DNA of 23,341 nucleotides from positions 1-23,341 of IMG/VR virus record IMGVR_UViG_3300009423_000033, one strand, 5' to 3'. Position numbers and translations under genes: made by a program. The notes below the pieces were generated by a model. The model did no database searches. It saw only the letters and a list, made by a program, of their open reading frames with translations, and was not told the origin of the DNA. This document shows positions 1-18,915 of the stretch, piece by piece (the first letter of the stretch is position 1; the number at the start of each line of letters is the position of its first letter). The stretch is from a virus.

Positions 1-468
1 CCGGAACTTAAACACGGTCACAGCAGCCCTTTTACTTGGCGAGCCAGTCACAGCGTGGGGTACAGAGCCGTTATGGAAATACCATTTATTTTTTTGGTAT
101 CGAACTGTCTTGACTACCGGCCCATCCATACAGTCTTTAAAGTGCGTCTCGGCGTCTTCGCCATGAATAACGCAGTTATACGACCACTTGCGAATAGTGT
201 CGGTGTGAAACGGTGCGCTCCCTGTATCGAGGCGTTGTATAGCCACCATCCACTGGTCATCTATCTCTACTGGCAGGTTTTCAATCACCCAGTCCCGCAA
301 CACCCGTGGCGTTGTTATGAAGTTAAACGCAGGGTGTGTTTTAACCCCAGGGATTGCACGACTGTCTGTACAACTCCACTCTGTTAGACCAGTAACCATA
401 TCGTTGGGGAGTTCGGGCCATGCTTTCTCTTCGTAATAACTACCCTTCAAAACGCGGCGTTGCGTCAA
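1..468 (-). CDS. 2OG-Fe(II) oxygenase-like protein, partial (3' end beyond window)
   Basis: The minus strand is open from inside the sulfotransferase gene to the left edge with no stop. Counting from a TTG at 468, the visible 156 residues contain an HxD pair (H88, D90, in PFHTD), a distal His (H138, in GSVPHAV) and an Arg nine residues later (R147, in SKRAAVTVF). This HxD...H...R layout is the metal- and 2-oxoglutarate-binding pattern of double-stranded beta-helix dioxygenases, including Asp/Asn hydroxylase-like enzymes. Such enzymes hydroxylate proteins, sugars or small molecules using Fe(II), O2 and 2-oxoglutarate. The substrate here is unknown. The start is uncertain: TTG 468 has a GAAGAG-like site nearby, TTG 450 gives an 11-bp overlap, and ATG 399 lacks a clear ribosome site. 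It is the last visible gene of the enzyme cassette. The family call rests on motif and spacing only. Confidence 0.6.
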   Translation of the reverse strand, partial: MTQRRVLKGSYYEEKAWPELPNDMVTGLTEWSCTDSRAIPGVKTHPAFNFITTPRVLRDWVIENLPVEIDDQWMVAIQRLDTGSAPFHTDTIRKWSYNCVIHGEDAETHFKDCMDGPVVKTVRYQKNKWYFHNGSVPHAVTGSPSKRAAVTVFKFR

Positions 469-1129
469 AAAAAGCTGTCTCTTCAGCAAAATACTGAACC
501 ATTTTGGTGTAGCAATCAGTAGGTAACCAGTCTTGTACAGGCTCTCTGAACTCGGCGGGAACACCATTGGGGTTCATCTGTATACTTGGGAACGCCGCAG
601 TTACGGGGGTTCCTAACTTGTCGCCAAGAATGCTTCTTGTTACAGCCTCTACGTCTTCCCATCGATATGCCGTTGCTACCTGAGTGTCGCCCATAAAGAA
701 GTAATCCCTATATGAAAACGACTTGTAGTTTGTTGCTGCAAATGATGAGGCGTTTGCAAAAAATGGCCGTGGCGAACTTGCGTATCTCACTAGGTTGCAT
801 AGCTGATCAAGAGGGTCTACTGACGCATCTAACGCGCCTGAGTGTCTTGCTAAAAAGAAAGCCGACACCCACCTTTCAAAAGGCTCGCGTATAAAACCAA
901 ACGCGGTGTACTCGCTTAGTTCATCTGCTGTTACAACATTTGTGTTCACCAGCACCGCAGGCATAGCGTGATACGCTTTAATCGCAGTAATGTCTTGAGG
1001 GGTTGTCAGTGAGTAAACCACATCAGTGCTATCTGTAATGTCTGAATCTAATATAGCCCGTTGGACGCTGTTAGATGCAGTACGCGGAACAGCCACAAAT
1101 AACAGCTTATGCCTCTTTGATAAATACAT
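440..1129 (-). CDS. Sulfotransferase family protein (PAPS-dependent type)
   Basis: This 229-residue protein carries the two nucleotide-binding signatures of sulfotransferases. An N-terminal 5'-phosphosulfate loop follows a hydrophobic strand (FVAVPRTASNSV, residues 11-22, equivalent to PKTxxTS). A 3'-phosphate motif lies at residues 77-92 (FIREPFERWVSAFF), with R81, P83, R86 and S89 in the usual spacing. Enzymes of this family move sulfate from PAPS to hydroxyls, most often on carbohydrates, and the length fits a minimal catalytic domain. There is no signal peptide or membrane anchor, so it would act in the host cytoplasm using host PAPS. Its ATG overlaps the stop of the cupin-like gene (TAATG), so translation is coupled. 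The acceptor is unknown; glycans made by the neighbouring glycosyltransferase candidates are the natural guess. Confidence 0.8.
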   Translation of the reverse strand: MYLSKRHKLLFVAVPRTASNSVQRAILDSDITDSTDVVYSLTTPQDITAIKAYHAMPAVLVNTNVVTADELSEYTAFGFIREPFERWVSAFFLARHSGALDASVDPLDQLCNLVRYASSPRPFFANASSFAATNYKSFSYRDYFFMGDTQVATAYRWEDVEAVTRSILGDKLGTPVTAAFPSIQMNPNGVPAEFREPVQDWLPTDCYTKMVQYFAEETAFFDATPRFEG

Positions 1130-1707
1130 TACTCAACTCCGGTTGTGTCTGCGTAACCATCCATTACGGTGGCCCCTGGTGTAAGTCTGCGAATCAGATC
1201 CTCTTGCATTGGCCCTACAGTCGGCCCCTTCCAGCGGGCAGCTACAGTTGTAGGTGTAAGGCCATCCTTCCATTTTTGAAAGGCGAGCAGCCCAAAACCG
1301 CCGTTCACTACATCACGACCTTTGAAATTGACGCCCGCGCCATGAGTCTCGCCTGTGACTAAAGTCTCAGATGCCTCTCGGTAGGTGGTCTGTTTCAACT
1401 GACCTGCGCCATCTACTGCCCAGGTGTCCAAGCGCATCTTTATCACATCAACGTCTGGGTGTCCGTGGATAGGTAGGTTTGGGCAAGGGTGTATCAGGTA
1501 CAGTTCAACCTGAAACTGACCACTTCTAAACAAACAAAAAGAGGTGGCATCGTCGCTTAAATTTACAACTTCGTCTGGTGGTGCAATTGGTCGATTCGCA
1601 GCATTCCACCACTCGCAAAACTCCTGCACTGTTTCCCATTGCGGCACCGCGTGGCCCCGCATCGGGTTAGTGCTAAAAACACCCTGCTTTGCCATTTTAA
1701 TGGTCAT
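1129..1707 (-). CDS. Cupin-like protein
   Basis: This 192-residue protein has two segments resembling the cupin metal motifs. The first is IHGHPDVD at residues 80-87 (H81, H83, then D87 where Glu is usual). The second is VTGETHGAGVN at 117-127 (G119, H122 and N127, close to the GxxHxxxN form). They are separated by about 35 residues of mostly beta-prone sequence. Cupins are small beta-barrels that bind a metal or sugar nucleotide and act as epimerases, isomerases, dioxygenases or binding proteins; nothing here picks one. The start codon overlaps the previous gene's stop (TAATG) and its own stop overlaps the sulfotransferase start. Its position suggests a role in the same modification pathway. 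A second ATG four codons downstream is possible. Confidence 0.5.
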   Translation of the reverse strand: MTIKMAKQGVFSTNPMRGHAVPQWETVQEFCEWWNAANRPIAPPDEVVNLSDDATSFCLFRSGQFQVELYLIHPCPNLPIHGHPDVDVIKMRLDTWAVDGAGQLKQTTYREASETLVTGETHGAGVNFKGRDVVNGGFGLLAFQKWKDGLTPTTVAARWKGPTVGPMQEDLIRRLTPGATVMDGYADTTGVE

Positions 1708-2063
1708 TAGCTGGAAGCCAATTCTGCTGTTGGGCGCAGTGTTAAATATCTGTCAGCGTACTGCGCTGATAAGTCAGCTTCGTGTGCGCCTTGTAGATGC
1801 TCCAAGAAATCCGACCCGCCTTCGTGATCAAGGCAAAGCTGCAATACTTGCTGCTGGGTGATACCGCTGTAATCAATGAATGAATCAGACAAAGTGTCAG
1901 TATTCAGGTATGTCATTATTTGACCCAGGCTGTTCACTGCGCGACGGAAATCGGCGTCAAAAAACTCTACCTGCCACAACACTTTTTTGACTACGTTTTC
2001 GCGTCCGTCTTGTTCGGGGATCGTATATAGCTCTAGTATTTTTGCTTCGTACTCAATGTTCAT
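1707..2063 (-). CDS. Hypothetical protein in modification cassette
   Basis: This 118-residue acidic protein has no recognised motif. It starts with a beta-prone segment (residues 1-35, including KVLWQVEFFDAD) followed by probable helices. There is no signal peptide, membrane span or cysteine pattern. Its ATG lies 11 bp inside the preceding glycosyltransferase-like gene, and its stop overlaps the ATG of the cupin-like gene, so it is translated as part of the cassette. Small proteins in such positions can be chaperones, adaptor subunits or fibre-assembly factors, but no function can be assigned from sequence. Confidence 0.7.
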   Translation of the reverse strand: MNIEYEAKILELYTIPEQDGRENVVKKVLWQVEFFDADFRRAVNSLGQIMTYLNTDTLSDSFIDYSGITQQQVLQLCLDHEGGSDFLEHLQGAHEADLSAQYADRYLTLRPTAELASS

Positions 2064-2769
2064 TAGTTGTGTCCTCTAATAATGTTTTTGCTAACCCGAC
2101 GCGCAGCTTTGCAGCGCGGGTTAATGTTCTCTCTGCCAACTTTTTTACGGTTGGTAACTCGTCTGCAAATGGGAACGCTTTTTCCAAAGCATAAGCAAAC
2201 ATCTCGTTACCATTGGCTGAACCTTTTTCAAACACATCCACGTAGTTATAAATTGAAGCGTTTTCAGCAAGCATTCCGTAATCCATCGCCAGCTTTCCTG
2301 ACAAAACATTCGCGACGAGCGCATCGCTTTTATGATTCATGTGCCTTGGCATGCGAAGCCGTTTTGCTGTTTGTAGCACCCCCGCATCCGAAGCTGGTAT
2401 GTCAGCCCATCGTGCGGGGTTAATAATGAACACGCTCAGGTCTAAATGGTTTCTACCAATCTTGCTGCCAATAAGTCCGTAGGCTTGGCTGTGTTTTGGG
2501 TGATCACTAAACACACCAGCGCGGCCCAAACAGATGTCATACTCACCGAGCAGTTCCCAAGACGGCATATCCCCATCTTGGACGTTCAAAATGACTCCAC
2601 TCTTTACCACTAACGCTGTCTTTGTAAGGTTCTTCAGCGCTGTGGGTATAAACCCTTCATCGTAGGGCACCACCTTGTAGTCCCAGTCAGGCATGTTCGC
2701 TTTTACAGAATTAACTGTTAACGACGCCAGCTTGTTGCACTCGACTACTAAAACTTCTGGGCGCGACAT
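2053..2769 (-). CDS. GT-A-like glycosyltransferase candidate
   Basis: This 238-residue protein opens with a Rossmann-type strand-helix segment (EVLVVECNKLASLTVNSV). Later it has a stretch resembling the acceptor-side part of small GT-A transferases (LDLSVFIINPARWADI, near residue 130, like the NxGVxLINxxxW segment of GT8-type enzymes). A canonical DxD is not evident. A TTG at 2775 is possible, but AGGAG lies 6 bases before the ATG at 2769, which I take as the start. The gene overlaps the upstream GT-B-like gene by about 60 bp. A role in transferring a sugar to a virion or host component is inferred from the fold-like pattern and neighbours. An inactive or non-glycosyltransferase Rossmann protein is the alternative. 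Confidence 0.45.
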   Translation of the reverse strand: MSRPEVLVVECNKLASLTVNSVKANMPDWDYKVVPYDEGFIPTALKNLTKTALVVKSGVILNVQDGDMPSWELLGEYDICLGRAGVFSDHPKHSQAYGLIGSKIGRNHLDLSVFIINPARWADIPASDAGVLQTAKRLRMPRHMNHKSDALVANVLSGKLAMDYGMLAENASIYNYVDVFEKGSANGNEMFAYALEKAFPFADELPTVKKLAERTLTRAAKLRVGLAKTLLEDTTNEH

Positions 2770-3604
2770 GCTCAACTCCTATGTACTGTTCAAAAAAACT
2801 AGTCACGTTTTCCTGCTGACTATCTGGGCTTGACGGTATTAGCCCTGAACTATCGCTACTTAAAATAGCTTTCAACCGGTCTGCCCGAAGAACGCCTTTA
2901 GTTTCTAACGCCCTGTATATTGCCGTGTACGTACACCACTCATCGCGCTTACCGAATAAGTAAACTTTCTTGCCTTTTGCTAGGGCTACAATGCCCATTT
3001 CGCTGTTTTCACAGCAGCCTACAATCGCTGCGCGATCTAATATCGCTTTGCCACTCTTCTTCTTTTCAATGACGCTCTGTGCGCCGTACTTATGTACTAA
3101 GTGTTGGTACACAGTTGGCGACGTAAGGGGGTGACACTTGATTTTCGCGCCCTGTGCCATTGCTCTTTCGACTTTAGGCCAGTCGGTAACCTTGTCTAAT
3201 ATGTTTGTGCCTGGGAGAAAGATAACGAAATCATGTTGCTCTCCAGTCGATCGTAGTCGGTACTTGTCTTCATTGTTCTCTGCAATATCCTCAAACAGAC
3301 GCTCACCAGTTGCGTTAATTTGGCTGTTAGCTGCTTGCTGCATAGTTTGAGATGCGTGTTTTATACTTGCTGCTCTTAGGTAAATGAACTTCGTCAGCAA
3401 GTCCGTATAAACGTAGCCATGTATCTTGCCGTCGCTAAAGTTGTACCAAAGGTCATATTCGATCTTTGTACCTCTCCACGTATCAGGTAACAGCTTCTTA
3501 GTCGCGATTAGCTGGTCGCTCTTTCTGTTCCTCAGTACATTCCCGCTTTTAAAAAAGTGCGCTGCGGAATTACCAAGTTCGTCATTCTCAGCTAGTTTCT
3601 TCAA
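2711..3604 (-). CDS. GT-B-like glycosyltransferase candidate (capsule-synthesis type)
   Basis: This 297-residue protein has a C-terminal half resembling the donor-binding domain of GT-B enzymes such as capsule or CDP-glycerol-type transferases. The features are a strand ending in FVIFLPGTN (residues 126-134), a KIKCHP motif (154-159, the K-x-HP signature) and a glycine-rich terminal element (residues 192-218) with NSEMG before GKKVYLFG. The N-terminal half is less informative. The first available start is a TTG at 3604, because a stop lies just upstream in frame; the ribosome site is weak, and the start lies 17 bp inside the small coiled-coil ORF, which suggests coupling. It likely moves a sugar or polyol phosphate in the cytoplasm. 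Donor and acceptor cannot be read from the sequence. Confidence 0.5.
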   Translation of the reverse strand: MKKLAENDELGNSAAHFFKSGNVLRNRKSDQLIATKKLLPDTWRGTKIEYDLWYNFSDGKIHGYVYTDLLTKFIYLRAASIKHASQTMQQAANSQINATGERLFEDIAENNEDKYRLRSTGEQHDFVIFLPGTNILDKVTDWPKVERAMAQGAKIKCHPLTSPTVYQHLVHKYGAQSVIEKKKSGKAILDRAAIVGCCENSEMGIVALAKGKKVYLFGKRDEWCTYTAIYRALETKGVLRADRLKAILSSDSSGLIPSSPDSQQENVTSFFEQYIGVEHVAPRSFSSRVQQAGVVNS

Positions 3605-3722
3605 GTCTTTTTACCAATTGAGCCACCTGCTCTTCGAGTTCAGAGATACGGTCTTCTGTTTCTGAAAAATGCTCCATAATTACGTCAAGCGTGTTTTCTA
3701 GCTTTCTAGTCATGTCATCCAT
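3588..3722 (-). CDS. Small coiled-coil protein (44 aa)
   Basis: A short ORF starts at an ATG overlapping the stop of the Thr/Ser-repeat gene (TAATG), with GGAAG a few bases upstream. It ends 17 bp inside the next gene. The 44-residue product is almost entirely helical, with heptad-like hydrophobic positions (L8, L12, I15 and I26, L29, V33, L36, L40) and many Glu/Lys/Arg residues, so it should form a short coiled coil. It would be a plausible trimerisation plug, chaperone or assembly cofactor for the repeat protein or the downstream enzyme. It fills what would otherwise be a gap between two coupled genes, which supports it being real. Confidence 0.6.
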   Translation of the reverse strand: MDDMTRKLENTLDVIMEHFSETEDRISELEEQVAQLVKRLEETS

Positions 3723-5137
3723 TAGTCTTCCGTCCACTGTGAGCCATCCCAATAACGGCGGTTGTTAGCGCCTTGACTGCCTACTTCGGTCTCATTACCC
3801 GTTGCTGTAAGTCTTTCGTAAACCACCGTGGACGTATCCCGATTCGTGTTAGTCGATCTACTTGTCCCTGTGTCATGCGCGGTGGTGTTGTTAGTGTCAA
3901 AAGTCGTAGTGAACGACGTAGTAGTTGCACGACTAGTGCCTGTGGCGCGAGTAGTGTTAAACGACGTGGTGGTTGCACGACTAGTGCCTGTGGCCCGCGA
4001 CGTGTTAAACGACGTAGTGGTTGCTCTGCTGGTGCCTGTGGCCCGCGACGTGTTGAACGACGTGGTGGTTGCTCTGCTGGTGCCAGTAGCTTTCGACGTG
4101 TTAAACGACGTGGTGGTTGCTCTGCTGGTGCCAGTAGCTTTCGACGTGTTAAACGACGTGTTGAACGACGTAGTAGTTGATGCGCTTGTGCCGCGAGAGG
4201 TGCCGCGAGACGTTCCGAACGTAGTGGTGCGAGAGGTTCCGCGAGAGGTTCCGAACGTAGTGGTGCGAGAAGTGCCAATGGTTCTGGCGAGCCTCTTAAT
4301 CCGGTAATTTGTGGTCGTTATATTGTAGGTAGTATCAGTAGAAGTGCTGTGTTGAGCGCCCCGCTGGTATGTAAAACCGCCTGCCGAATAAGTGGTGGTT
4401 GTGGCTACACTTGAAGCTATAAGACTGCCCCCATAGCGCCAAGTTTGGTCATCTGTAGTGCCAGTGATAATACGAATTATACTGTTACTTGCTGCGTTAT
4501 AAGCTGGGTAGCTAAGTGCGTGTGTCTGTGTGTTAAACGACGTGCTACGCGACGTGTTAAACGACGTGGTGTACGACGTGCTACGCGACGTGTTGAACGA
4601 CGTGGTGTACGACGTGTTGAACGAGGTTGTGGTTGCTCTGCTTGTGCCGCGAGACGTGCCGTAGGTAGTCGTTGTGTTGAACGCTGTAGTCGTAGCCTTG
4701 CTAGTGCCAAAGGTAGTCGTGGTGTTAAACGCCGTGGTGGTCGCTCTACTGGTGCCAAAAGTAGTGGTCGTGTTGAACGCTGTCGTAGTCGCTCTACTGG
4801 TGCCAAAAGTAGTGGCCGTGTTGAACGCTGTCGTAGTCGCGTTGCTAGTGCCAAAAGTGGTGGTCGTGTTGAACGCTGTCGTAGTCGCGTTGCTCGTACC
4901 AATGCTCGTACTATAAGTCGTTGTGTAGCTGGTCGAAGTGTCAAACGCTGTAACTGTACCAAAAATGGTACTGGTGTCTCTGGTAGTGTCGTAGACAGCC
5001 GCCCAAGCAGTGGACAACGAGCCATCATCTTTTTTGACGACAACGTAGTTAACACCGAAAACCGTTGCTGCATCACCCTTAACAAATATCTGGGTGGGTT
5101 CTTTTATAGTCGAACCATCAAGGACTTTAATAGTCAA
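3722..5137 (-). CDS. Thr/Ser-repeat virion fibre protein candidate
   Basis: This 471-residue protein has five parts: an N-terminal domain (1-50); repeat block I (about 60-205); a non-repeat insert (206-290) rich in Tyr, Thr and Ile; repeat block II (about 287-435); and a C-terminal tail ending RRYWDGSQWTED. The basic unit is a tetrapeptide, aromatic or basic residue then small residue then TS (YTTS, FNTS, RSTS, FGTS). It is organised into 16-residue units, with Phe, Tyr or Ile every 16 residues from 79 to 159 and Phe every 16 residues from 329 to 409. Thr and Ser dominate both blocks. The start is a TTG immediately after the upstream stop, with no strong ribosome site. Its place after fibre genes suggests an extended beta-structured appendage or adhesin. 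The family is not recognised. The repeats leave other frames open too. Confidence 0.7.
   Translation of the reverse strand: MTIKVLDGSTIKEPTQIFVKGDAATVFGVNYVVVKKDDGSLSTAWAAVYDTTRDTSTIFGTVTAFDTSTSYTTTYSTSIGTSNATTTAFNTTTTFGTSNATTTAFNTATTFGTSRATTTAFNTTTTFGTSRATTTAFNTTTTFGTSKATTTAFNTTTTYGTSRGTSRATTTSFNTSYTTSFNTSRSTSYTTSFNTSRSTSFNTQTHALSYPAYNAASNSIIRIITGTTDDQTWRYGGSLIASSVATTTTYSAGGFTYQRGAQHSTSTDTTYNITTTNYRIKRLARTIGTSRTTTFGTSRGTSRTTTFGTSRGTSRGTSASTTTSFNTSFNTSKATGTSRATTTSFNTSKATGTSRATTTSFNTSRATGTSRATTTSFNTSRATGTSRATTTSFNTTRATGTSRATTTSFTTTFDTNNTTAHDTGTSRSTNTNRDTSTVVYERLTATGNETEVGSQGANNRRYWDGSQWTED
3833..4279 (-). repeat. 48-bp tandem repeat block II (coding)
   Basis: The DNA has a 48-bp period matching the 16-residue protein unit that runs from residue 329 to 409. 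Flanking sequence is built of 12-bp units coding FGTS/RGTS-type tetrapeptides. Copies differ mostly at single bases. The period is a multiple of three, so gain or loss of units would keep the reading frame. Confidence 0.85.
4058..4153 (-). repeat. Two identical adjacent 48-bp units
   Basis: Positions 4058-4105 and 4106-4153 match base for base over all 48 positions. Other units in the block carry substitutions. This pair therefore looks like the most recent duplication or homogenisation event in the array. Confidence 0.9.
4523..4960 (-). repeat. 48-bp tandem repeat block I (coding)
   Basis: Units of 48 bp encode residues 79-174, with a Phe, Tyr or Ile at 79, 95, 111, 127, 143 and 159. The next stretch is a pure 12-bp (tetrapeptide) array cycling YTTS, FNTS, RSTS. 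The block is separated from block II by about 240 bp of non-repetitive coding sequence. Confidence 0.85.
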
Positions 5138-5875
5138 TTAACTAACCACATACCAAACATGGCCTGCCGCAAACCCCGTGCCGCTCGATGGCGCTGTCGT
5201 GACAATTGATTGGGTCTTGATATTTGAAGGCAGTACATAGTTATTCGCGCTGGCCGCAATCCCGTCGAGCTTAGTATGGTCAGCATTCGTGAAATTGTTT
5301 TGGGACAGCTCACCGTCTTGAACGGAATATGTAGTGTTGGTGTCTGTAAACAAAGCGCCAGAAGGTACGTCTGTAAGAACCTGAGAGTCATCTACTTTTC
5401 CATCTAAAGCAGATTGTAATCCAGTGATAAAACTAATGGCGTGGGCTGATGGATGCGAGTAGTTATTAGCACTCGCAGCAATCCCATCTAATTTTGTGTG
5501 GTCTGCATTCGTAAAATTGTTCTCAGACAGCTCGCCATCTTGGACGGAGTAAGTTGTATCCGTATCAGCTTGCGTTGCTACATCATTTAAACCTGCAGCG
5601 GTAAGCCTAAGCTCACACTTATCTCCTGACGAAAAGGTACGGGCAGTAGAGTTATCTTGGGCTCTAACGACCGTCAACGTGTTACTGCTACGAGCCGTAC
5701 ATTTAACAATCTCTTTAAGCGTCGGGTCGCTGTCTACTTCAAGAGTCAGATAAAGGTAGTCGCTACCAGAAAGCGCTGGAAACGCTGACCCATCTGCCAC
5801 CGTAATAGATGTGGCAGAGTCGCTAACGCCCGCCGACAGCGTCGTAGTCGCATTGTTGTGGAATAAAACTGCCAT
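5138..5875 (-). CDS. Tail fibre protein with duplicated NADHTKLDGIA repeat
   Basis: This 245-residue protein has an N-terminal beta-rich domain (about 1-95) of a type common at the start of marine phage fibres, with a TVVRAQDNSTARTFSSGD segment. Two nearly identical 32-residue repeats follow, at 108-139 and 182-213, each containing NNFTNADHTKLDGIAASANN. Repeats of this kind are frequent in fibres of marine podoviruses and myoviruses and are thought to form trimeric shaft or connector segments. The protein ends abruptly after the second repeat, so it looks like an adaptor fibre that would need a partner for receptor binding. The next gene's protein may be that partner. GAGAGG lies 6 bases before the ATG. 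Confidence 0.75.
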   Translation of the reverse strand: MAVLFHNNATTTLSAGVSDSATSITVADGSAFPALSGSDYLYLTLEVDSDPTLKEIVKCTARSSNTLTVVRAQDNSTARTFSSGDKCELRLTAAGLNDVATQADTDTTYSVQDGELSENNFTNADHTKLDGIAASANNYSHPSAHAISFITGLQSALDGKVDDSQVLTDVPSGALFTDTNTTYSVQDGELSQNNFTNADHTKLDGIAASANNYVLPSNIKTQSIVTTAPSSGTGFAAGHVWYVVS

Positions 5876-5887
5876 GAAAAACCTCTC

Positions 5888-6313
5888 TTACGAAGCGGTT
5901 ATTGCCCAAGTCACAGTCATAGCATCTGAAGCACCTTTGTTGACGGTTGAATAAACCGTTCTGCAAAGCATGGTTCCACCGCTAGATGCATTTAATATTG
6001 CCGCTTCAGTAAGTGCGGCAGTAGCCGTACCTGCTGGGAATGTAGCTACGTATGTAATGACGTTGGCGGAGACAGTGGATGACGTTAAGGAGACCCGTCC
6101 TGACTCTGTTCCAAGCGCTGTATCTCCTGCGGCGGCGGCAGTACTGTCAGTACCAACAGCCATGTGACTCATTGCGCCGTCGGTTGTATCTTTCATGCGG
6201 CTTGCTACGTAACCCTTACCAGCGGTAACAACAAGATTAGGTATCTCTTGAACTACCTCGCCGTTGATTGCCACTGTAACGTGGCCTGTAAGCTTTAAAT
6301 TTTCTGTGATCAT
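5888..6313 (-). CDS. Phage virion appendage protein, hypothetical
   Basis: This 141-residue beta-rich protein is dominated by Ala, Thr, Val and Ser, with a central segment (MAVGTDSTAAAAGDTALGTESGR) of a type found in many phage baseplate or fibre-associated proteins. There is no signal peptide or membrane segment. AGGA lies 8 bases before the ATG. It sits between two other appendage genes with only 9- to 12-bp gaps. It is probably a structural component of the tail or fibre base; the exact role is not determined. Confidence 0.6.
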   Translation of the reverse strand: MITENLKLTGHVTVAINGEVVQEIPNLVVTAGKGYVASRMKDTTDGAMSHMAVGTDSTAAAAGDTALGTESGRVSLTSSTVSANVITYVATFPAGTATAALTEAAILNASSGGTMLCRTVYSTVNKGASDAMTVTWAITAS

Positions 6314-6322
6314 GGTGAAATC

Positions 6323-7015
6323 CTATGAATTAAGTGTGTATGTATTTAGTGCTGAGGCGTTAAGCACAGCGTTATGACCTGCCCTGATTTCGTAACTAAA
6401 ACTGTCTGAGAACGACAGAACATTTGTTTTCTCGACGCCCCAGTTCGGGCTAACGTTTACTACTTCGTCCAGGCCGAACGCTTCAGTAAAGCCTCTGGAA
6501 AAATTCGCAACACGGCTAAACGAGTCAGACACCGAAAACGCGTCGCTTGCAGGTTTGGCATAAGTACTGCTGTATAAATCTCCGAGCGATATAGAGTCTG
6601 TTTTGCTTGTATCAAATGCTCGATCCATTACTTCGGACAGAGCGACCTGATCGCTAATACCTTTGTCAAACGTAAAGACTGATACGTCTGTCACCGCAAA
6701 CGAATCGGTAAAATCACGATTAACTGTCACTAGCAAAGTGACTGAATCGCTAAATCCAACGCTATCAACTGCGCTTTTAGCTAACGCAATGGCCTGAGAT
6801 TCTGTGAATCCCAAGCTGTCCAGAGTGGTCTTTTGCGTATGGAGCGCTGCTACATCCGAAAAATTAAACTGGTTCTCGAGGTATTGGTTTAGTGGAAACG
6901 CATCCAACTTGATCTCAGTAGCAGTGATGTCTGTGTAAGACACTTCGCCCTTTGCTAACTGGTAGGCGGCTCTGCCTGTAATTTTTGCGTAAGTAACGCT
7001 AGCCTTCGGGCCCAT
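6323..7015 (-). CDS. Repetitive virion protein with ~19-residue Asp/Ser repeats
   Basis: This 230-residue protein carries about nine imperfect repeats of 17-21 residues between roughly 49 and 213. Each has a core like (S/T)D-S/A-x-(hydrophobic)-(S/T)-D/E, for example VDSVGFSDSV, FTDSFAVTDV, SDAFSVSDSF and LSFSDSFSYE. The spacing suggests a beta-solenoid or a string of small beta units. The N-terminal 48 residues differ and may anchor it. The ATG overlaps the stop of the upstream BppU-like gene (TAATG). It is likely an appendage or baseplate structural protein; no named family is claimed. Confidence 0.6.
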   Translation of the reverse strand: MGPKASVTYAKITGRAAYQLAKGEVSYTDITATEIKLDAFPLNQYLENQFNFSDVAALHTQKTTLDSLGFTESQAIALAKSAVDSVGFSDSVTLLVTVNRDFTDSFAVTDVSVFTFDKGISDQVALSEVMDRAFDTSKTDSISLGDLYSSTYAKPASDAFSVSDSFSRVANFSRGFTEAFGLDEVVNVSPNWGVEKTNVLSFSDSFSYEIRAGHNAVLNASALNTYTLNS

Positions 7016-8459: not shown

Positions 8460-11400
8460 CTAAAGTACTAGACTGTATCCAGGGATTATCCGAGCAGGCA
8501 CTACGTCCCAGCCTTTACCGCTGTAGAGGCCTAACGCTATATCGTCGACAAGGAATCCGTATGTGGGGCCAAAGATAGGCGATAACGCTTTGGCGGTTTG
8601 TCCAATTGGGCCCAGCCCTTGCGACTCGCCCCATTCAGCGCTTTTACCAATCATGCCGAATATGGCCATTGGCCCAGCTAGACCGCCGCGATCAAATAGC
8701 TCACCCATGTAAGTCATCATATCCATTCTGTCAGAACGGAAATAACGAGCGTTCGCTTCTACACCAGGGAGTACGCCTGCAATACCTGCTTTTGCAATTT
8801 CTCGTAATTCCAAAGACAGTGCGGCAAGCGGCATAAACGCTGCCGCCGTAAGGAGGCCCATCATCCCAACGCTGCTTAACTTAGCCAGAGTAGTGTCGCC
8901 CTCTGCCAACCGCATCTGCATTTCGCGTTTAATGCCACCTAGGATTACTTTACCGAACGAGAATAGGTATGACTTTAGCGCCCAGATAAGCTGATACTTC
9001 GGGTCGTTACCCCAGCTAGTACGCTCAGCTGCATTCGGCTTCAACATAGAGTTATCTACAAAGCGTTGCATAGCGCCCATCACCGCTTTTCCGGCTTCAC
9101 CCTCAAAGGTGTAGTGAGCACCATCAACCTGATCGACGAGCCAAGACTTTACTTGCTCAGCTGTTACGCCGTGGTCTTTAAGGTAGCGACTAGCGCGGTC
9201 GTTATTCGTCTTGTTGTAAGCGTGCTCAACCAAAAACTCTACGCTCATTACGGAGGCAAACTCTCTGGTGTAGCGGGTGAAGTAATCCAAGCCGATCTTC
9301 GAAAAGAACGCGTCAGAGTATTTACGTACTCGAGGGTCTAAGTACTCGGCATCTGCTTCGGTAAGCCCGAGATTACCCATTACTGTGCTGTGGGTTACAC
9401 CAAGTGTTCTAGCGAGTTGAATAGCTTGCTCGGGGTTCTGGATACGCGAGAGTATGGCGTTCTTAGCCATGCCAAAACCGTTGAACTCTTTAGTGTTAAC
9501 TAAAGCACCACCAAACTCTGGGATAGACCCAATAGTAGCTAGCGGCAACAACGTAACCCAGTTGAACAGTTGCATCCAAGACATAGCTTTAGAAAGTCTT
9601 GGGTTTAGTGGCTTATCTGTGTAACCGAGGTATCGCTCTAGGGTAGTGACCGCTTCTTTGCGCTTCGCTTCAGGTAACTTCTCCAACTCAAGCGCAAGCA
9701 TGTCGTTGCCGTCTGCGTCGTGGGTATTACGCTTCCATTCAGTACGCGTGATTACGTGCCGTATGTACTTCATCAATGCCACTTCTGGCTTTTCAATGAA
9801 CGGCTTCAACTCACTGTGCGGTATGTTTTGTGTCAGTACTCGCGCTTTTTCAACGACGCTCTGCGGGTTTTGGGCGTCAAAGGTAATCTCATTGTCATTT
9901 ACGATACTCTGCTGTCTTGCGACAAGACCGCTTACCGCTTGGCGAATGGTCTCCTCGTTGGCAAGTGGGTTGTACTTAATGACAAGCTCAGTAAATGTAA
10001 TTTCAGGGCTGGCTAATCTAAGCCGTTCCCGCATAAGGAGCTCCGTCATTACACCTTTTTCTACATCGGTCATTTCCTCAAAAGGTTTTGCCGTTCTGAA
10101 ATCTCGTTTCAGAAAGCTATCAATCTCTTCGTCCGTAAGTTCTTTAATCGTCTTAAGATCTTGAATATCAATAAAACCGTTCGGGTCAACGCCGTCTTTC
10201 AATAGAAGGCCTACCCCTTTCTCTGGTTGCATACTCATCTCAGAGTACTCATGCGTTGTATCTGTAGCATCAACGAACATCCGACGGTTTTCGTTGTTAA
10301 AAATAGCCGCCAAGTCTAACGCCACGGGGAAATAGTCATCCCGCTTGGCTATCTCATTGCCTGGGGTTTTGGCGATGTAGTCGTCGTAAAATTTGTTTAG
10401 CCAGTCTCTAATCTCACGAGCCTTGCCGTCCAATGCCTCAGTCTTCTTGTCTTGGTCTGCCGCAAGCTCAAATGCATCTTGGATTTCTTTAGATTCCCAG
10501 TTTGTACCGAGAACCTTTTCGAGTTGGTCATACACTTGTCCGCGTACATGGTCTTTCGACTTGAGGTAACCAAACTGGTTGTTGGCCCGAGATTTAGCAT
10601 TCGAACGCGCGTACATCATGTCGGCTATTACTGGGCTAATACCGCGAAGAATGTTGTCCTCCGGTAGCACCATTTTAAACATCGTGTGGCCAGCAGCGGT
10701 GCCATCGATATGATCTTTAAAGTTGCGAAGCATTGAGTTAACGCTTTGCTGAGCATCGGGGTTCTTTGTAATCGACTCTTCCATCGCCCGAACAAGCGAT
10801 TTTTTGCTGTAAGCCACTTCTCTTGACGCCTTGCCAGCCACTTGTCGCAAATGCGCTCGTTCTTTAATGATGGTGTTTTCTATGTAGTCATCAAAGCTCT
10901 TTGAGTAGGAGTCTTTACCAAATCGGCGTTTGAACTCCGCGCTTAGCGAGTCCCACATAGCTTTTAGCTTCTCAGCTATCTTCGCAAAGGTTCTGCCGAC
11001 AACACCGTTGGGCTGCTTCTGATCTCTGATGTATATGTTCTTAGCTGTGATTGCAGTCTGATCCGCAAACCATTCTTCGAACCCGTGTTCAGTTTGATAC
11101 TGTGCAGGTGCATCTGGAGCCGTGCGTGCTTTCTCAAAGTCGCGTTCAAGCCTCTTTCTCAAAGCAGGGTTAGCTAGTGTGCCTTCAATCTCTTCATTAA
11201 ACAGAACATGCCCAAGCGCTTCGTGGGCAGAAATTAAAGCAGTTTGTAAGTCATTAGCTACACTAATATCATCAATCAAAGCAACGTGAGCATTGGTGAA
11301 ACCGATATACTCCCCGCGTTTATCGTTGTTGCTCGCTAACTCAGCTGCAACGTTCGTGATCATAGCGGCGACTTGCGGATCGTTAAACTGCTCTGCAATT

Positions 11401-14400
11401 TTTGCAGGAGTAAGTTTTTTAAGCTGCGAAAGACCAATAACGATTACCGGCTTCTTTGGCTTAATCTTGGCAATGGTTTTGGTTACAAATTCAGTCGATA
11501 TCGTACCCAAGCTACCAAAGGGGTATTCAGCGCCACGATAAGTCTGGCGTCCATACGTTTGCCTGTTCTTCCCGCCCAAGCTGCGATCAACGTCGCGCCG
11601 TGGGTTCATCTCCAGATTTAATCGTGTCTTTGGCAGGTCTGGGTCAGCAGCATCAAAACCGTCTTTGTTGTAGTTCGCCGTGCTCATGCCTGCTACTTCG
11701 TCGCCAAGACCTTGCTCGGTGTCTCGGTTAGCGCCTTCGTTTACGACAGGGTCTTTGACAGTGACGTTATCGAAGCCTTCTGTGTCGCGCAGCCTAGTTG
11801 CGTAAGCATCAGCTTCTTCTGCGCTGTAGAAGTACTCTTTTACGTTTTCTACTTCAGTAAATTGATCGCGTGCTAAAGCCTCATCAACAGCTTTTGCTCT
11901 GGTGGTTTGAGTCTGTTTAGCTGTGATTATCTGCTCAACTCTGGCTTGGCTAGCGGGCTGAGGTGCTCCCGCTAAGTTGGAACCGAGTTCGGAAGGCTGC
12001 GGGTCACGCTCGCGAAGCGTCGGAGCGTTTACGGCATCACCGCGCGATACACGTCGCGTTGCAGTCACAATAAAAGCGCTGTTCTTAGGCGTGAGACGCA
12101 ATTCCGGTTTGAAACCATCTCGCTCGAGGCGAGCAACCTCTTTCTTTGCAGTCTCGAGTGTAAGTAGCTTACCGTCAGGACGGTTGTTTTCGCGGCGGAC
12201 AGAATACTGCTCTCCGAACGAATCCGTGAATTCTACGCTAACGAAATTATCTGACTTGCGATCCGTGACAACTGTGTTTCTAACCCGAGCGCCACTGGTG
12301 GTCTGTTCTACGGTTGTCTCAACGCGCGAGTCTCCCATCTGACCCCTAGCGCCTAGCACATCACGGAGCTGTACATCAGCACCGTCCGCTCTTGCCGCTA
12401 CAACATCGCCTATTGGGCCTAACAAGTCTTGGCTAGTGATATCAAAGATCGACTTGCCTTGTATGCGTATATCAAAGGTGGGCTTACCTTCATCTGCCAG
12501 CTTAACGTTTAGCTCTGTTATCTCAGTAATAAACTCGGGCAGACCCTGTCTCGCCATTTCGGCTAACTTGTCGCCCTGATAAGTACTGTTACCACGCTGT
12601 CGAACCAACTCACGGCCAGCGTCTGTCAGATTAACTAGGTTGATTTCTTTTGGCTCAAGACCAGCCTCGATGAGTTCAACGCCTGAGCCAGATGCGAATT
12701 GACTGCGTTTCGCACCGCGTAGCGTCTTCAGAACAAACTGATCATCGAGAGCGTCGGGGTCTTTGATGAATGAAGTCTTCTCAAGCACGTAGCCTTTTTC
12801 AGTAGCTACAATCTTAAAGTCAGACTGCGGGTCGCCCTCGGCAGTGACATCTGCCATCTTCGCTTCGGCGGCTCGTCTCAAGAACGATTCAGTCATATGA
12901 GCGTAGAAGGGGTCGCTCCAATCTTTCTTACCGAACGCTTCTTCAAACTGGGCTCGAGACGCTTCGGTATTCTTAAAAGTTTTCTTCGGGTCTTTCTTTC
13001 GCGAGTAGCCTTTGGTCTCAATTGTTTCGACATTCTCTTGGAAGCCCTGACCTTGGAAGTAATCTTGTACTTCTTCCATAGTCGCTTCTTCATCGCGAGC
13101 GTCAGGCCGCGTTTTCTGCAACTCCTGCTTCTCTGCGTATAGCACGCCAAGGATTTCGTCTTTACGCGCGTTATCGCCTTCGCGGTACTGCTTCTCAAGG
13201 GCTACAAGACGGGCGTTGTCAGGATCTTCTGCAACTAGTGCGGTTAGGTTCTCACCAACCGAAGCTCGGAACTCTTCGCGTTTCGGCTCAAGGTCTGGTT
13301 TCTGTGGGCGAGTAGACTTAGGCTCGCTGACAGGAGTAGGTGCGGGTTGCCGGTTAGTTGGACCGCCAAGGTTCAACTGTTTCTGGGAAAAACCCTCTGC
13401 ATCAGTAGGAGTAAATGTCTCCATCGACCGTTGCGTTGGCTCGTCGTCTTGCTCGTTGCCGTAGTACTCATTGTAGGCGTCTTCAAGGCTCTGCTCGGTT
13501 GGGCCCTTAACAGCTGTGAAGTAAGGGGTTTCAGGGTCTGCAAGTGCGTTAACTAAGTCGTCGAGTAAATCGTTTGCACCGAAATTGTCTGGTCGACCCT
13601 GCGGAGCGTCGTTGTAGTAACCCAATTCACGCAGCGCTGTGACCATGTCATCAAGCTGTAAACCGCCTTCCTTTCGAAAGACAGAACGTCCTTTTACTCG
13701 AGCAGTCTTGAATGCTTCTGTAATTTGAGACCCGTCTCGCTCAACTGAGCTACGAGATATACCCCCAGCAGCGACGATTGCTGCTAGTAGCCCATCTTCT
13801 GGGTCAGCGGAAAAGTTCTTTTTAGCCTGCGCCTGACGTTTATTTCTCTGTGCTGCTTTACGCTGGACCTCTGCCTCTTCTAGCTTTTGACGGTAAGCAG
13901 CTGCTCTTTCAGTACGGTCTGCTTCCCACGCGGCTTCCTCTTCGGGGGTGCGCTCGGGCTGAGGGTTCTCAGGCGCAAACAGGTCATCTGATCTTTCTTC
14001 GGTCGCCTCTGTACGTTCTGCTAGATCCTCGGCCTCAATCTCTCCAGAAGTCTTCTTATTGGCTAGCTGTTTGGCAAGTAGGTCAGCACGTTCTTTTTGG
14101 AGAGCCTCCGTCTGCTCTCTTGAAGGATTAACTATCCACCTGCCTGTGGCCAGCTCTTTGTCGCTCCACATCTTGGTTTCGCCATCTTTGGTCTTACCCT
14201 GGTAGATGGTTTCTCCATTATCAGCTTTCTTAATCTTTACGATGGTGACTTCTTCTGGCGTAATTTCGCGCTCAGTAAGAATAGATCCATCATTAGCTTG
14301 TGCCGCTGAAGTTGGGCCAGACCCACCTTTCATTACGGTTACAACTTGTCCTTCAGCAAACTCTGATTGGGGCGCTTGCGCACCTTGAGCTTCTTCTTCA

Positions 14401-18126: not shown

Positions 18127-18915
18127 CTAAACTCTTCTGAACTCAACGTCGACCTTGTTGTAGTCAACCATGTTGTAACCTACGCTCCGCTCGACAACTG
18201 CCCACGGAACTTCGTCTGCCATTACGCCTTGGTAGCGCTCATCTGAGCCTTTGTAACTAAACTCATAAATATTAATACCATTGTCGGAAACGCCGATTTG
18301 CTCGATGTTCTCTTTCATGCGCCGGTCGCTCGCGAATATTGCGTACGCGATAATTGCGCTTGAGGCTAAAGTCCCAACGGTAGACATCGTCTGTGCTTTT
18401 GCAGACGCTTTTGCTTGGGTGTAGGCGTTAGCTCGGGCTTGAGCATCAGACGCAGCTGAGCCAAGTTGACTCTGGGAAGATCGATTAACACCTTGCCCGA
18501 TATTAATTAAGTCCGACTTTAGCGCAGTATTCGCTTCTTGCTGTGCAATACGGGCGTCTCCAACTGCTTGTATTGAACCAAGGGTTGTTCCTCTATCAAG
18601 AGCCCGTTCTTGTTGCTGAAGCTGGGCTGGAGTCAATGCAGCTCCGTAACGTGAGGCGTTACGTTCTGATACGCCTGACATGAGACCAGCCACTCGTCCA
18701 CTATCTTCTTTAGCGGCGTCGATAAGACTCGTATCATTCTTAGCCTTTTCAAGTAGTCCATCTTCAAAAGAACTATACTTGTCCTTGAAATTTAGGTACT
18801 CGTCACGAGTGATGTTTGAGTAAGTCTGTCTCGGGTCAGTTACGTGAGGTAACGTAGGGTTGGGTTCGTACCCGTAACCGCCGCTGCCGTACCCTGGAGG
18901 TGTACTTATTATCAT
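18127..18915 (-). CDS. Internal virion protein with C-terminal S74-like chaperone domain
   Basis: This 262-residue protein has a Gly/Tyr-rich N-terminus, then a helical Ala/Gln-rich region (85-175) and a hydrophobic helix (TVGTLASSAIIAYAIFA, 179-195). Right after it comes SDRRMKENI (196-204), with GVMADEVPWAVV and YNMVDYNKV further on. This is the pattern of peptidase-S74 intramolecular chaperones, in which Ser and Lys (S196, K201) support self-cleavage. S74 domains usually cap spikes and fibres, but in some marine podoviruses they end internal proteins. Residues 36-56 (RDEYLNFKDKYSSFEDGLLEK) resemble the upstream protein's N-terminus. ATG overlaps the previous stop (TGATG). Confidence 0.75.
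   Translation of the reverse strand: MIISTPPGYGSGGYGYEPNPTLPHVTDPRQTYSNITRDEYLNFKDKYSSFEDGLLEKAKNDTSLIDAAKEDSGRVAGLMSGVSERNASRYGAALTPAQLQQQERALDRGTTLGSIQAVGDARIAQQEANTALKSDLINIGQGVNRSSQSQLGSAASDAQARANAYTQAKASAKAQTMSTVGTLASSAIIAYAIFASDRRMKENIEQIGVSDNGINIYEFSYKGSDERYQGVMADEVPWAVVERSVGYNMVDYNKVDVEFRRV

Follow-up and report, generated by a model that had tools for sequence, protein, structure and literature searches.

A protein dominated by threonine repeats (TR) and a predicted glycosyltransferase (GTA) form a near-obligate pair in bacterial viruses, an association that is strongly supported in the gene neighborhoods we surveyed. The pair is found in the window, the whole 23,341-nucleotide stretch analyzed here (IMG/VR virus record IMGVR_UViG_3300009423_000033), which is a viral fragment carrying a capsid gene of KPP25-like type, and it occurs in many other bacterial viruses, largely from water samples. 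We consider it probable that the TR-GTA core is a virus-encoded fiber-glycosylation pair, in which GTA, working in the host cytoplasm, would place sugar on the Thr repeats, since glycosylation of the fiber is supported both by the association and by the predicted fold.

TR, which we presume to be a tail-associated fiber and a virion component, is present in the window together with the seven genes downstream of it (Table 1). The sequence-only reading had described a Thr/Ser-repeat protein followed, with overlaps, by a coiled-coil peptide, two glycosyltransferase candidates and the rest, and all of these genes were confirmed on a single strand. From TR through the coiled coil, GTA, GTB, DUF7936 and cupin-like genes to the sulfotransferase, successive overlaps measure 31, 17, 65, 11, 1 and 1 bases; the sulfotransferase and 2OG-like genes overlap by 128 bases as listed, or by ~11 if the latter really starts near position 450, as its homologues suggest. 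The coiled-coil peptide is kept at the TR-GTA junction in most relatives examined. Of the motif-based enzyme calls of that reading, the sulfotransferase passes its Pfam cut-off, both glycosyltransferase assignments derive from predicted folds instead of sequence profiles, and no profile was significantly matched by the cupin-like protein (in Pfam, PHROG and NCBIfam) or by the 2OG-like one (in Pfam and PHROG).

Table 1. Features of the window in the region of the TR gene
Feature	Position	Strand	Remarks
2OG-Fe(II) oxygenase-like protein	1-567	-	invariant residues; gene runs past the window edge
Sulfotransferase	440-1129	-	PF03567
Cupin-like protein	1129-1707	-	HxH (H81xH83) invariant; no significant profile match
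DUF7936 protein	1707-2063	-	PF25590
GTB (predicted GT-A fold glycosyltransferase, GT8-like)	2053-2775	-	predicted fold
GTA (predicted GT-B glycosyltransferase, KpsC/WbbB-like fold)	2711-3604	-	phrog_26179 and predicted fold
Coiled-coil peptide (54 aa) at the TR-GTA junction	3588-3752	-	
TR (471-aa Thr/Ser-repeat protein, presumed fiber)	3722-5137	-	TTG start
Tail-fiber-type protein directly upstream of TR	5138-5875	-	several PHROG tail-fiber families matched
Next upstream gene, phrog_5417 (function-unknown family)	5888-6313	-	weak tail-fiber match

Threonine (152 residues) and serine (62) make up 45% of the 471 residues of TR, the median for Thr+Ser being 15% in mechanically called genes of at least 200 aa from related loci (n=566, TRs included). 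Its gene contains arrays of period 48 at 3912-4160 and 4665-4902. A chance or wrong-frame repeat is rejected in view of the mismatches between five 48-nt repeat units, which number 16, 6 and 60 at codon positions 1, 2 and 3, and of dN/dS values of 0.19-0.40 in comparisons with four relatives, of which two hardly differ from each other. Both termini, TIKVxDxGTLKEPTQIFVK at the N-terminus and VVYERLTATG...RYWDGSQWTE at the C-terminus, are conserved among close TR relatives. The repeats follow a T-x-[FYWR]-x-T register with a lag of 4 or 6: the residue two places ahead of F/Y/W/R is Thr in 81% of cases and the one two places behind it in 84%, with Ser at these positions in 3-4%. The earlier description of the fiber as mucin-like therefore applies only loosely, in that TR is rich in Thr and Ser, with Thr held in this register, and poor in Pro (2 residues in 471), which sets it outside the mucin-type (Pro/Thr/Ser) domains; proline amounts to 0-0.9% in the other long repeats and to 1.4-5.1% in five short ones. 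N-glycosylation at N-x-S/T was also considered, as 19 of the 29 Asn of the window's TR lie in sequons, and seems less likely: in the repeats of KVP40-type and Caulobacter phages Asn accounts for only 3-5%, and it is Thr whose position is strictly kept. Thr-repeat proteins gave no match to solved structures, nor did TR and the sulfotransferase in a phage collection, where a low-complexity filter may hide TR.

The association was counted around the best 80 of 144 and the best 80 of 263 GTA relatives, all confirmed in one or other of two viral-contig scans; loci with fewer than 600 bases upstream were dropped (4 of 80 in the window's GTA group, 10 of 80 in the second). A Thr/Ser-rich ORF was defined as one with 38% Thr+Ser or more, a threshold picked after the first set and then applied unchanged to the second, and the controls were same-strand stretches lying anywhere but in the 8 kb (first set) or 9 kb (second set) preceding GTA. 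In the window's group such an ORF lies within 3.5 kb upstream of GTA in 72 of 76 relatives (41 of 44 after 90% dereplication), as against none of 95 controls. The second group, whose GTAs are about 20-25% identical to that of the window (22-25% for two members, 19-20% for L165 and L172), gave 70 of 70 loci, or 32 of 32 dereplicated, against 0/62, so that the pooled figures are 142/146 and 0/157. A cruder count for the window's group, with the limit at 40% and a single ORF considered per locus (the longest of those that end within 1.2 kb), gave 64/79. The reverse search agrees: all 29 loci found by repeats alone (not dereplicated, with several contigs seen in other sets) have GTA within ~1 kb downstream, and 57 of 60 TR-selected loci have it, the remaining three ending no more than 200 bases past the TR match. 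On one contig, L129, GTA stands apart from TR, yet elsewhere it encodes a Thr-repeat protein whose available parts contain 53-54% Thr+Ser; three further GTA loci, L121, L127 and L132, are on fragments with no TR seen.

The pair persists where both the phage backbone and the fiber termini differ. Besides the KPP25-like type of the window, it is found beside siphovirus-type genes in a SAR92 contig, in Caulobacter Autographiviridae (including the cultured Lullwater), and in the cultured KVP40 and similar Vibrio phages, where it sits beside metabolic genes, outside the structural cluster. Eight of 45 matched records of cultured phages were inspected, and in six a gene with at least 37% Thr+Ser lies upstream of GTA; in Cr30 the adjoining gene has only 27%, and in DLP_6 the Thr repeat sits in another protein, AAY80_265. 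The co-occurrence of enzyme and repeat protein in related phages, which the sequence-only reading had proposed as a check, is borne out for GTA from both search directions and on several backbones, well beyond what the sequence alone could show.

GTA matches phrog_26179, an unnamed family (E 1.4e-45), and together with its KVP40 and Lullwater relatives it falls to phrog_26179 and phrog_30602, families without a given function. Neither GTA nor GTB has a significant Pfam, NCBIfam or PDB-sequence match, GTB has none among the PHROG profiles either, and their profiles gave no credible match to solved structures. The AlphaFold model of GTA (pLDDT 86) has a KpsC/WbbB-type GT-B fold by a modest margin: KpsC is matched with Foldseek at E 1e-5 (TM 0.43) and with VIA at Z 9.5 over 214 residues (4.2 A), and KpsC, WbbB and KrkA make up the top 13 VIA matches (Z 9.5 to 8.3), the best non-glycosyltransferase following at Z 7.1. 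As no sequence profile places it there, we do not file GTA as a member of the KpsC/WbbB family. K-x-H-P is present in 14 of 14 divergent GTAs, its His-Pro being a motif of KpsC/WbbB-type Kdo transferases, and a Glu after Ser/Thr is conserved across very divergent members. In the LPGxN loop the Asn is invariant, and no invariant Asp is evident as a counterpart of KpsC D160 or WbbB D232, as judged from alignment rather than residue-level superposition.

GTB, modeled at pLDDT 92, has a GT-A fold, all 50 VIA matches among those listed being glycosyltransferases. The best is GlyE (Z 12.3, 182 residues, 3.5 A), and others are WbbM, UGGT, LgtC, glycogenin, LARGE1 and the PBCV-1 capsid glycosyltransferase. 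The Foldseek result is weaker than that of VIA, with STIV A197 as best match and nucleotidyltransferases next among the top matches. Foldseek matches at E 0.001 or better number only 5 for GTA and 2 for GTB, and the top six matches of each have query-length TM-scores of 0.28-0.46, so that the fold evidence is moderate. No D-x-D was seen by eye near the expected strand of GTB in an alignment. GTB accompanies GTA in 78 of 80 loci of the window's group and went undetected in eight loci whose GTAs are divergent.

The remaining genes bear on the proposal of the sequence-only reading that the entire eight-gene run is one cassette glycosylating, sulfating and hydroxylating the fiber. Its favorable points are that the genes overlap in a single run, that TR and GTA accompany the sulfotransferase (PF03567, E 1.6e-8, 35.5 bits against a cut-off of 22) at 10 of its 11 loci, and that P15-R16-T17-x-S19 and R81-x-P83...S89, which we take to be the two PAPS-binding motifs of the sulfotransferase, are invariant in 10 sequences. 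Those 10 loci are, however, not independent, because their GTAs are 62-100% identical to that of the window. Moreover, a 10.4-kb fragment (L272) holds a DUF7936-like gene (recognized by eye), the cupin gene, a 76%-identical sulfotransferase and the 2OG-like gene without TR or GTA, and 42 of 53 cupin loci are without TR or GTA in the available sequence, the part preceding the cupin gene being 4 kb or longer in 25 of them and shorter in 17. On these two grounds the strong form of the single-cassette idea is rejected, and we regard the idea as a whole as unlikely; the outcome that the sequence-only reading had named as refuting it, enzymes no rarer where a repeat protein is absent, was observed for the cupin-like gene and not for GTA. 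Of the modifications once envisaged, glycosylation of the fiber is retained, on the association and the predicted fold, while sulfation and hydroxylation of it become conjecture. The DUF7936/cupin/sulfotransferase/2OG-like block, which the operon may carry in the window's own GTA group, is separable and may decorate TR or another fiber. Among its other products, the DUF7936 protein lies above the Pfam cut-off (E 9.2e-9); the cupin-like protein, whose HxH is invariant in 10 sequences, finds PCO_ADO as its best Pfam profile, below cut-off at E 0.21; and in the 2OG-like protein H121xD123...H171...R180 is invariant in 5 sequences (three nearly identical), presumably representing the facial triad (HxD...H) and the 2OG-binding Arg of 2OG-Fe(II) oxygenases.

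Other explanations concern the core pair itself. GTA and GTB could be folding or assembly chaperones of the repeat fiber whose glycosyltransferase fold is no longer catalytic, which would account for the near-obligate pairing, for the lack of a visible DXD in GTB and of a clear nucleophile Asp in GTA, and for a weak structural likeness of GTA to the accessory secretion proteins Asp1/Asp3 (Z 6.2-6.3); GtfB, the non-catalytic partner in bacterial Ser-rich-repeat glycosylation, is itself partly chaperone-like. A chaperone would, however, not need the K-x-H-P and Glu kept in very divergent GTAs, and genes for KdsA and a GT29-type enzyme adjoin GTA in L186, so we hold this role to be rather improbable. 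It is more improbable still that the Thr repeats form an unmodified, β-rich structural stalk and that GTA acts on another virion protein, such as the adjacent fiber: the repeat register does look structural, and the long repeats are nearly free of Pro, unlike mucin domains, but this explanation accounts neither for GTA tracking the Thr repeat despite changes of neighbors nor for the retention of both genes on the contig where they are separated. Least probable, to the point of being remote, is that the enzymes modify lipopolysaccharide or capsule at the host surface, against superinfection or to free virions from debris, with the fiber as a co-transferred neighbor. The KpsC/WbbB likeness of GTA favors it, relatives of these enzymes acting on lipid-linked glycans or lipopolysaccharide, as does the position of KVP40-type pairs outside the structural cluster. 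Phage glycosyltransferases that alter host serotype are known and provide a precedent (PMC12619734). We nevertheless set it aside as leading idea on account of the two-way TR-GTA association, seen in two divergent groups and surviving changes of backbone and fiber termini, and of the near absence of the GTA family from bacterial genomes (1 of 369 searched in one bacterial class). Nothing that the searches turned up, aimed as they were at other questions, points to a modification of nucleotides or DNA.

Under the preferred reading of a fiber-glycosylation pair, GTA would be an active enzyme that attaches sugar to the threonines of TR, its substrate, within the host cytoplasm, either ahead of virion assembly or in its course; GTB, where present, would add a second sugar. 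An acid sugar activated with CMP, for example Kdo, would probably be the donor. In L165/L186 a 3333-aa Thr-repeat protein is followed by GTA, KdsA (TIGR01362, 391.6 bits against a cut-off of 314), a cupin gene and a GT29-type gene (PF00777, 24.5 against 23). Among 48 records, many of them fragments, a CMP-sugar synthetase (PF02348) was found in none and the KdsA family in one; therefore, if this reading holds, the donor would mostly be supplied by the host. This would give the virion a hydrated stalk, coated in sugar and probably bearing negative charge, from which the virus would presumably benefit. Far more tentatively, and with the balance somewhat against it, one might propose a previously unrecognized form of virion glycosylation across several tailed-virus lineages, in which Thr-repeat fibers, the longest exceeding 3,000 residues, would be densely O-modified by a phage-specific protein glycosyltransferase family derived from or resembling Kdo transferases, with Kdo or a related acidic sugar joined straight to Thr in T-x-[FYWR]-x-T. 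No protein O-Kdo (or O-ulosonate) transferase is known to us, so this one would be the first, and the TR system would be a viral counterpart to mucins and Ser-rich-repeat adhesins. If the fiber is indeed glycosylated, such glycosylation would be common to many phages rather than peculiar to a few, the unnamed GTA family (related to phrog_26179) would gain a function, and a different approach would be called for in studying how such phages adsorb, their host range and their shielding from proteases or immunity. Cultured phages already carry the pair, so direct testing is feasible. In titles and abstract openings among the literature matches listed, a coverage mostly outside subscription papers and bioRxiv, no Thr-repeat phage fiber with a glycosyltransferase was described.

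Several known systems invite comparison. GTA shares its predicted fold and the conserved His-Pro with the Kdo transferases KpsC, WbbB and KrkA, and differs from them in having no sequence-profile match or evident nucleophile Asp and in being partnered with a protein gene rather than a polysaccharide operon. With phrog_26179 and phrog_30602 the relation is one of common family, a function being proposed here where none is given there. The streptococcal Ser-rich-repeat adhesins, glycosylated by GtfA/GtfB and GlyE, are likewise long hydroxyl-rich repeat proteins encoded beside their own glycosyltransferases, and GlyE is the best VIA match of GTB; here, in contrast, the residue is Thr and not Ser, the protein is viral and not a cell-wall adhesin, and the constant partner is KpsC-like. 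The PBCV-1 capsid glycosyltransferase (PDB 2p72/2p73; Z 9.7 to GTB) is a GT-A enzyme that a virus encodes and that acts on a virion protein, as GTB would; it belongs to a eukaryotic algal virus and has the capsid as substrate. Also comparable are the mycobacteriophage glycosyltransferases that glycosylate virion proteins, the named substrates being capsid and tail-tube proteins (Freeman et al. 2023, as reported in PMC12363180 and PMC12619734). They too are phage-encoded enzymes for virion proteins, a role that we propose here for GTA; going by their description in those papers, the substrates there are capsid and tail tube, whereas the system described here has a dedicated Thr-repeat partner and a predicted KpsC-like fold.

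The 23,341-base window is a fragment of a KPP25-like phage, as the major capsid protein encoded there shares 51% identity with the counterpart in Pseudomonas phage KPP25. In the run that follows TR, the Thr/Ser-repeat protein presumed to be a fibre, adjacent genes overlap by 1-65 bases; the overlap of the sulfotransferase and 2OG-like genes amounts to 128 bases, or about 11, according to the start assigned to the latter. The TR frame is evidently under purifying selection, because its dN/dS is 0.19-0.40 against four relatives and the mismatches among five compared 48-nt units are distributed 16/6/60 over codon positions 1/2/3. Together with the gene calls, these values uphold the sequence-only reading in that the repeat protein and the overlapping genes downstream are real and not products of chance.

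Features of the window and of related loci, with their coordinates
Feature	Coordinates	Strand	Remarks
Tail-fibre-type gene	5138-5875	-	Matches several PHROG tail-fibre families; precedes TR
TR	3722-5137	-	471 residues, including 152 Thr and 62 Ser
Run after TR, in order		-	54-aa coiled coil, GTA, GTB, DUF7936, cupin-like, sulfotransferase, 2OG-like
2OG-like gene		-	Truncated by window edge
230-aa protein	6323-7015	-	By eye, degenerate repeats of the type 'SDSFS / VxLSDxV'; PHROG search at 1e-3 gave no match
2351-aa protein	8460-15515	-	Noted by eye
867-aa protein	15515-18118	-	Lytic-transglycosylase-like stretch by eye
Virion protein candidate	18127-18915	-	By eye, the C-terminus (DRRMKENIEQIG) is similar to S74-type self-cleaving chaperone domains; top PHROG match phrog_6121, virion structural protein
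D484 Thr-repeat ORF	L142:4961-5494		Unannotated; record shows short CDS only there
F86 Thr-repeat ORF	L143:4891-5448		Unannotated; record shows short CDS only there
DLP_6 AAY80_265	L138:1408-5274		Annotated baseplate wedge subunit; contains a Thr-repeat stretch of the same kind, ~300 aa
DLP_6 open ORFs at record ends	L135:3-1655, L138:15894-18488		229-base repeat annotated at both ends
G008 genes (L165, L186)			3333-aa Thr-repeat protein (57% Thr+Ser), divergent GTA, KdsA, cupin (PF07883), GT29-type gene
G008 run, coordinates	L165:4866-16756 / L186:11736-15630		Stretch holding the genes above; its KdsA has an additional C-terminal part of ~200 aa

TR and GTA, the predicted glycosyltransferase paired with it, are almost certainly functionally linked. 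A search with TR retrieved 60 viral loci, 57 of which carry GTA, the remaining three stopping less than 200 bases past the TR match. Most of these loci show the order TR, coiled coil, GTA and GTB (the second predicted glycosyltransferase), and the order is kept with TRs of up to 1,781 aa and GTAs only 43-48% identical. As the conserved C-terminus of TR could have biased this search, it was redone with repeats alone, using 333 aa of locus L018 as the query; GTA lay within about 1 kb downstream in all 29 loci recovered, a set that was not dereplicated and shares several contigs with the previous searches. Eight of these loci combine other TR termini with very divergent GTAs (E 5e-11 to 1e-21), and GTB was not detected in these eight. 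Likewise, the repeat of phage KVP40 recovered two loci, KVP40 itself and L184, with GTA in both.

Starting from the enzyme, a search with the GTA alignment found 144 relatives, and the best 80 of the 144 were analysed for a Thr/Ser-rich ORF (at least 38%) within 3.5 kb upstream, counting loci with at least 600 bases of upstream sequence. Such an ORF was present in 72 of 76 loci, or 41 of 44 after 90% dereplication, and in none of 95 control windows, that is, same-strand stretches of these loci away from the GTA upstream region. Three exceptions (L121, L127 and L132, on contigs of 5, 11 and 20 kb) yielded no TR in a whole-contig TR search, and the fourth, L129, has a Thr-repeat protein elsewhere on its contig. 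A second GTA group comprises 263 relatives, among which two members are 22-25% identical to the window GTA, and L165 and L172 19-20%. Among the best 80 of these 263, all 70 loci with enough upstream sequence (32/32 dereplicated) have the Thr/Ser-rich ORF, against 0 of 62 control windows. Several loci of this group (L175, L179, L182, L196, L198, L201, L222 and L264) have a protein of about 190 aa between two Thr-repeat proteins, followed by GTA. The GTA family is nearly absent from the searched bacterial genomes: a pattern-based scan of bacterial genome contigs found one relative, and phrog_26179, the PHROG family without a named function that GTA matches, was found in 1 of 369 genomes of one bacterial class and in 0 of 14 control genomes, both hits being in the same SAR92 genome.

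The pair furthermore occurs on diverse backbones. A 519-kb SAR92 contig carries it in a phage region whose portal, major head and tape-measure genes are of siphovirus type. Cultured phages were inspected in 8 of 45 matched records. In the Caulobacter phage Lullwater (Autographiviridae), gp41 is 40% Thr+Ser and gp42 is GTA, and the pair is also found in Caulobacter phages Quill and BL198. KVP40 encodes 0254 (49% Thr+Ser), 0255 (a coiled coil by eye) and 0256 (GTA); D484 and F86, Vibrio phages similar to KVP40, also have the pair, and in all three it adjoins metabolic genes outside the structural cluster. Two phages that grow on the non-pathogenic Vibrio natriegens, QD01 and VH1_2019, have a match to GTA as well. 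The GTA neighbour in Cr30, gp254, is just 27% Thr+Ser, and DLP_6, a Stenotrophomonas phage, has its Thr repeat away from GTA and the coiled coil. The linear record of DLP_6 seems to have been opened within one long unannotated gene.

Across 24 repeat proteins of different lineages, Thr fills the position two residues before F, Y, W or R in 81% of cases and the position two residues after in 84%; Ser makes up only 3-4% there and is common at neighbouring positions. Thr and the aromatic/Arg residues recur with a lag of 4, or of 6 in some families. The longer repeats contain less than 1% proline, and five short ones contain 1.4-5.1%; given this scarcity and the strict positioning of Thr, the repeat is not, strictly speaking, a mucin domain. 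It is instead an ordered Thr register, which would expose Thr along a single side of the extended chain.

No sequence profile assigns GTA or GTB to a named family. The GTA model (31-sequence alignment, pLDDT 86) has as its best structural matches the Kdo transferases KpsC, WbbB and KrkA, in Foldseek at E 1e-5 with TM-scores of only ~0.4, and in VIA at Z 9.5 across 214 residues (4.2 A), where they occupy rows 1-13 and the highest-ranked non-glycosyltransferase follows at Z 7.1. The GTB model (25 sequences, pLDDT 92) predicts a GT-A fold. In VIA it is closest to Streptococcus pneumoniae GlyE (Z 12.3, 182 residues, 3.5 A), which acts in glycosylation of Ser-rich-repeat proteins, and then to WbbM, UGGT, LgtC, glycogenin, LARGE1 and the PBCV-1 capsid glycosyltransferase; Foldseek was weaker, with no more than two matches attaining E 0.001, STIV A197 as the best and nucleotidyltransferases in the top rows.

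The donor is quite possibly Kdo or a relative, a reading we hold tentatively. One locus, on contig G008, hints at a CMP-activated acid sugar, because KdsA (Kdo-8-phosphate synthase; TIGR01362, 391.6 bits against a cut-off of 314) stands there beside an enzyme with the Kdo-transferase fold and a glycosyltransferase of the CMP-sugar type. The GT29 sialyltransferase match is short, covering residues 13-67 (PF00777, 24.5 bits, cut-off 23), and there is also a radical-SAM match that falls slightly below cut-off. KdsA-family genes occur in 1 of 48 records and a CMP-sugar synthetase in none of the 48; hence, most such phages would depend on a donor made by the host. The LPGxN loop of GTA has no evident invariant Asp, so the chemistry of this enzyme may differ from that of KpsC.

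The accessory genes present a different picture. The sulfotransferase scores above its Pfam cut-off (1.6e-8) and keeps, in 10 sequences, both of what we take to be the PAPS-site motifs. The cupin-like protein retains HxH in 10 sequences with no significant profile match, and the 2OG-like protein, also lacking a profile match, retains H121-x-D123...H171...R180 in five sequences, three of them nearly identical. The sequence-only reading had tied these enzymes to the repeat protein, in a single cassette that would glycosylate, sulfate and hydroxylate it. By the refuting condition which that reading set for itself, enzymes equally common in the absence of a repeat protein, the tie fails for the cupin, since 42 of the 53 loci found with the cupin alignment show neither TR nor GTA (25 of these with at least 4 kb upstream; 11 loci have both); it also fails, once, for the DUF7936, sulfotransferase and 2OG-like genes, which stand without TR and GTA in L272. 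This 10.4-kb locus has fibre-type genes, then DUF7936-like, cupin, sulfotransferase (76%) and 2OG-like genes, and no TR, GTA or GTB. Ten of the 11 loci from the sulfotransferase search do have TR and GTA, the GTA on these contigs being 62-100% identical to that of the window. In two cupin loci read closely, L276 and L280, the cupin lies behind a different kind of fibre gene; by eye, the cupin-like gene in L272, L276 and L280 comes after non-Thr fibre genes and before sulfotransferase, methyltransferase- or oxygenase-like genes. The accessory enzymes may act on fibres in general, with no specific tie to the Thr repeat, and the placing of enzyme genes behind fibre genes may be more widespread. 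In the lineage of the window, the fibre is unlikely to be sulfated.

Regarding function, we consider it probable that GTA glycosylates TR. The two would be produced together, and GTA would modify the repeat threonines in the cytoplasm, which supplies nucleotide sugars; GTB, if present, would extend the glycan. The coiled coil may join TR to GTA or trimerise the fibre, which on completion would sit on the tail beside the product of the preceding fibre gene. Possible benefits include a stiff hydrated stalk, a shield against proteases or against adhesion to debris, and weak reversible adsorption.

The main texts of the Lullwater and DLP6 papers (PMC11053796, PMC5349666) contain no word starting with 'glycosyl'. 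Phage-encoded virion glycosylation is established for capsid and tail-tube proteins of mycobacteriophages (Freeman et al. 2023, as related in passages of PMC12363180 and PMC12619734). The system proposed here would share phage-encoded glycosylation with these, and differ in its substrate class, a dedicated Thr-repeat protein instead of capsid and tail-tube proteins, and in its enzyme class, predicted to have a KpsC-like fold. In its strongest reading, a protein O-Kdo transferase, it would, if true, exceed a variation on known phage glycosylation.
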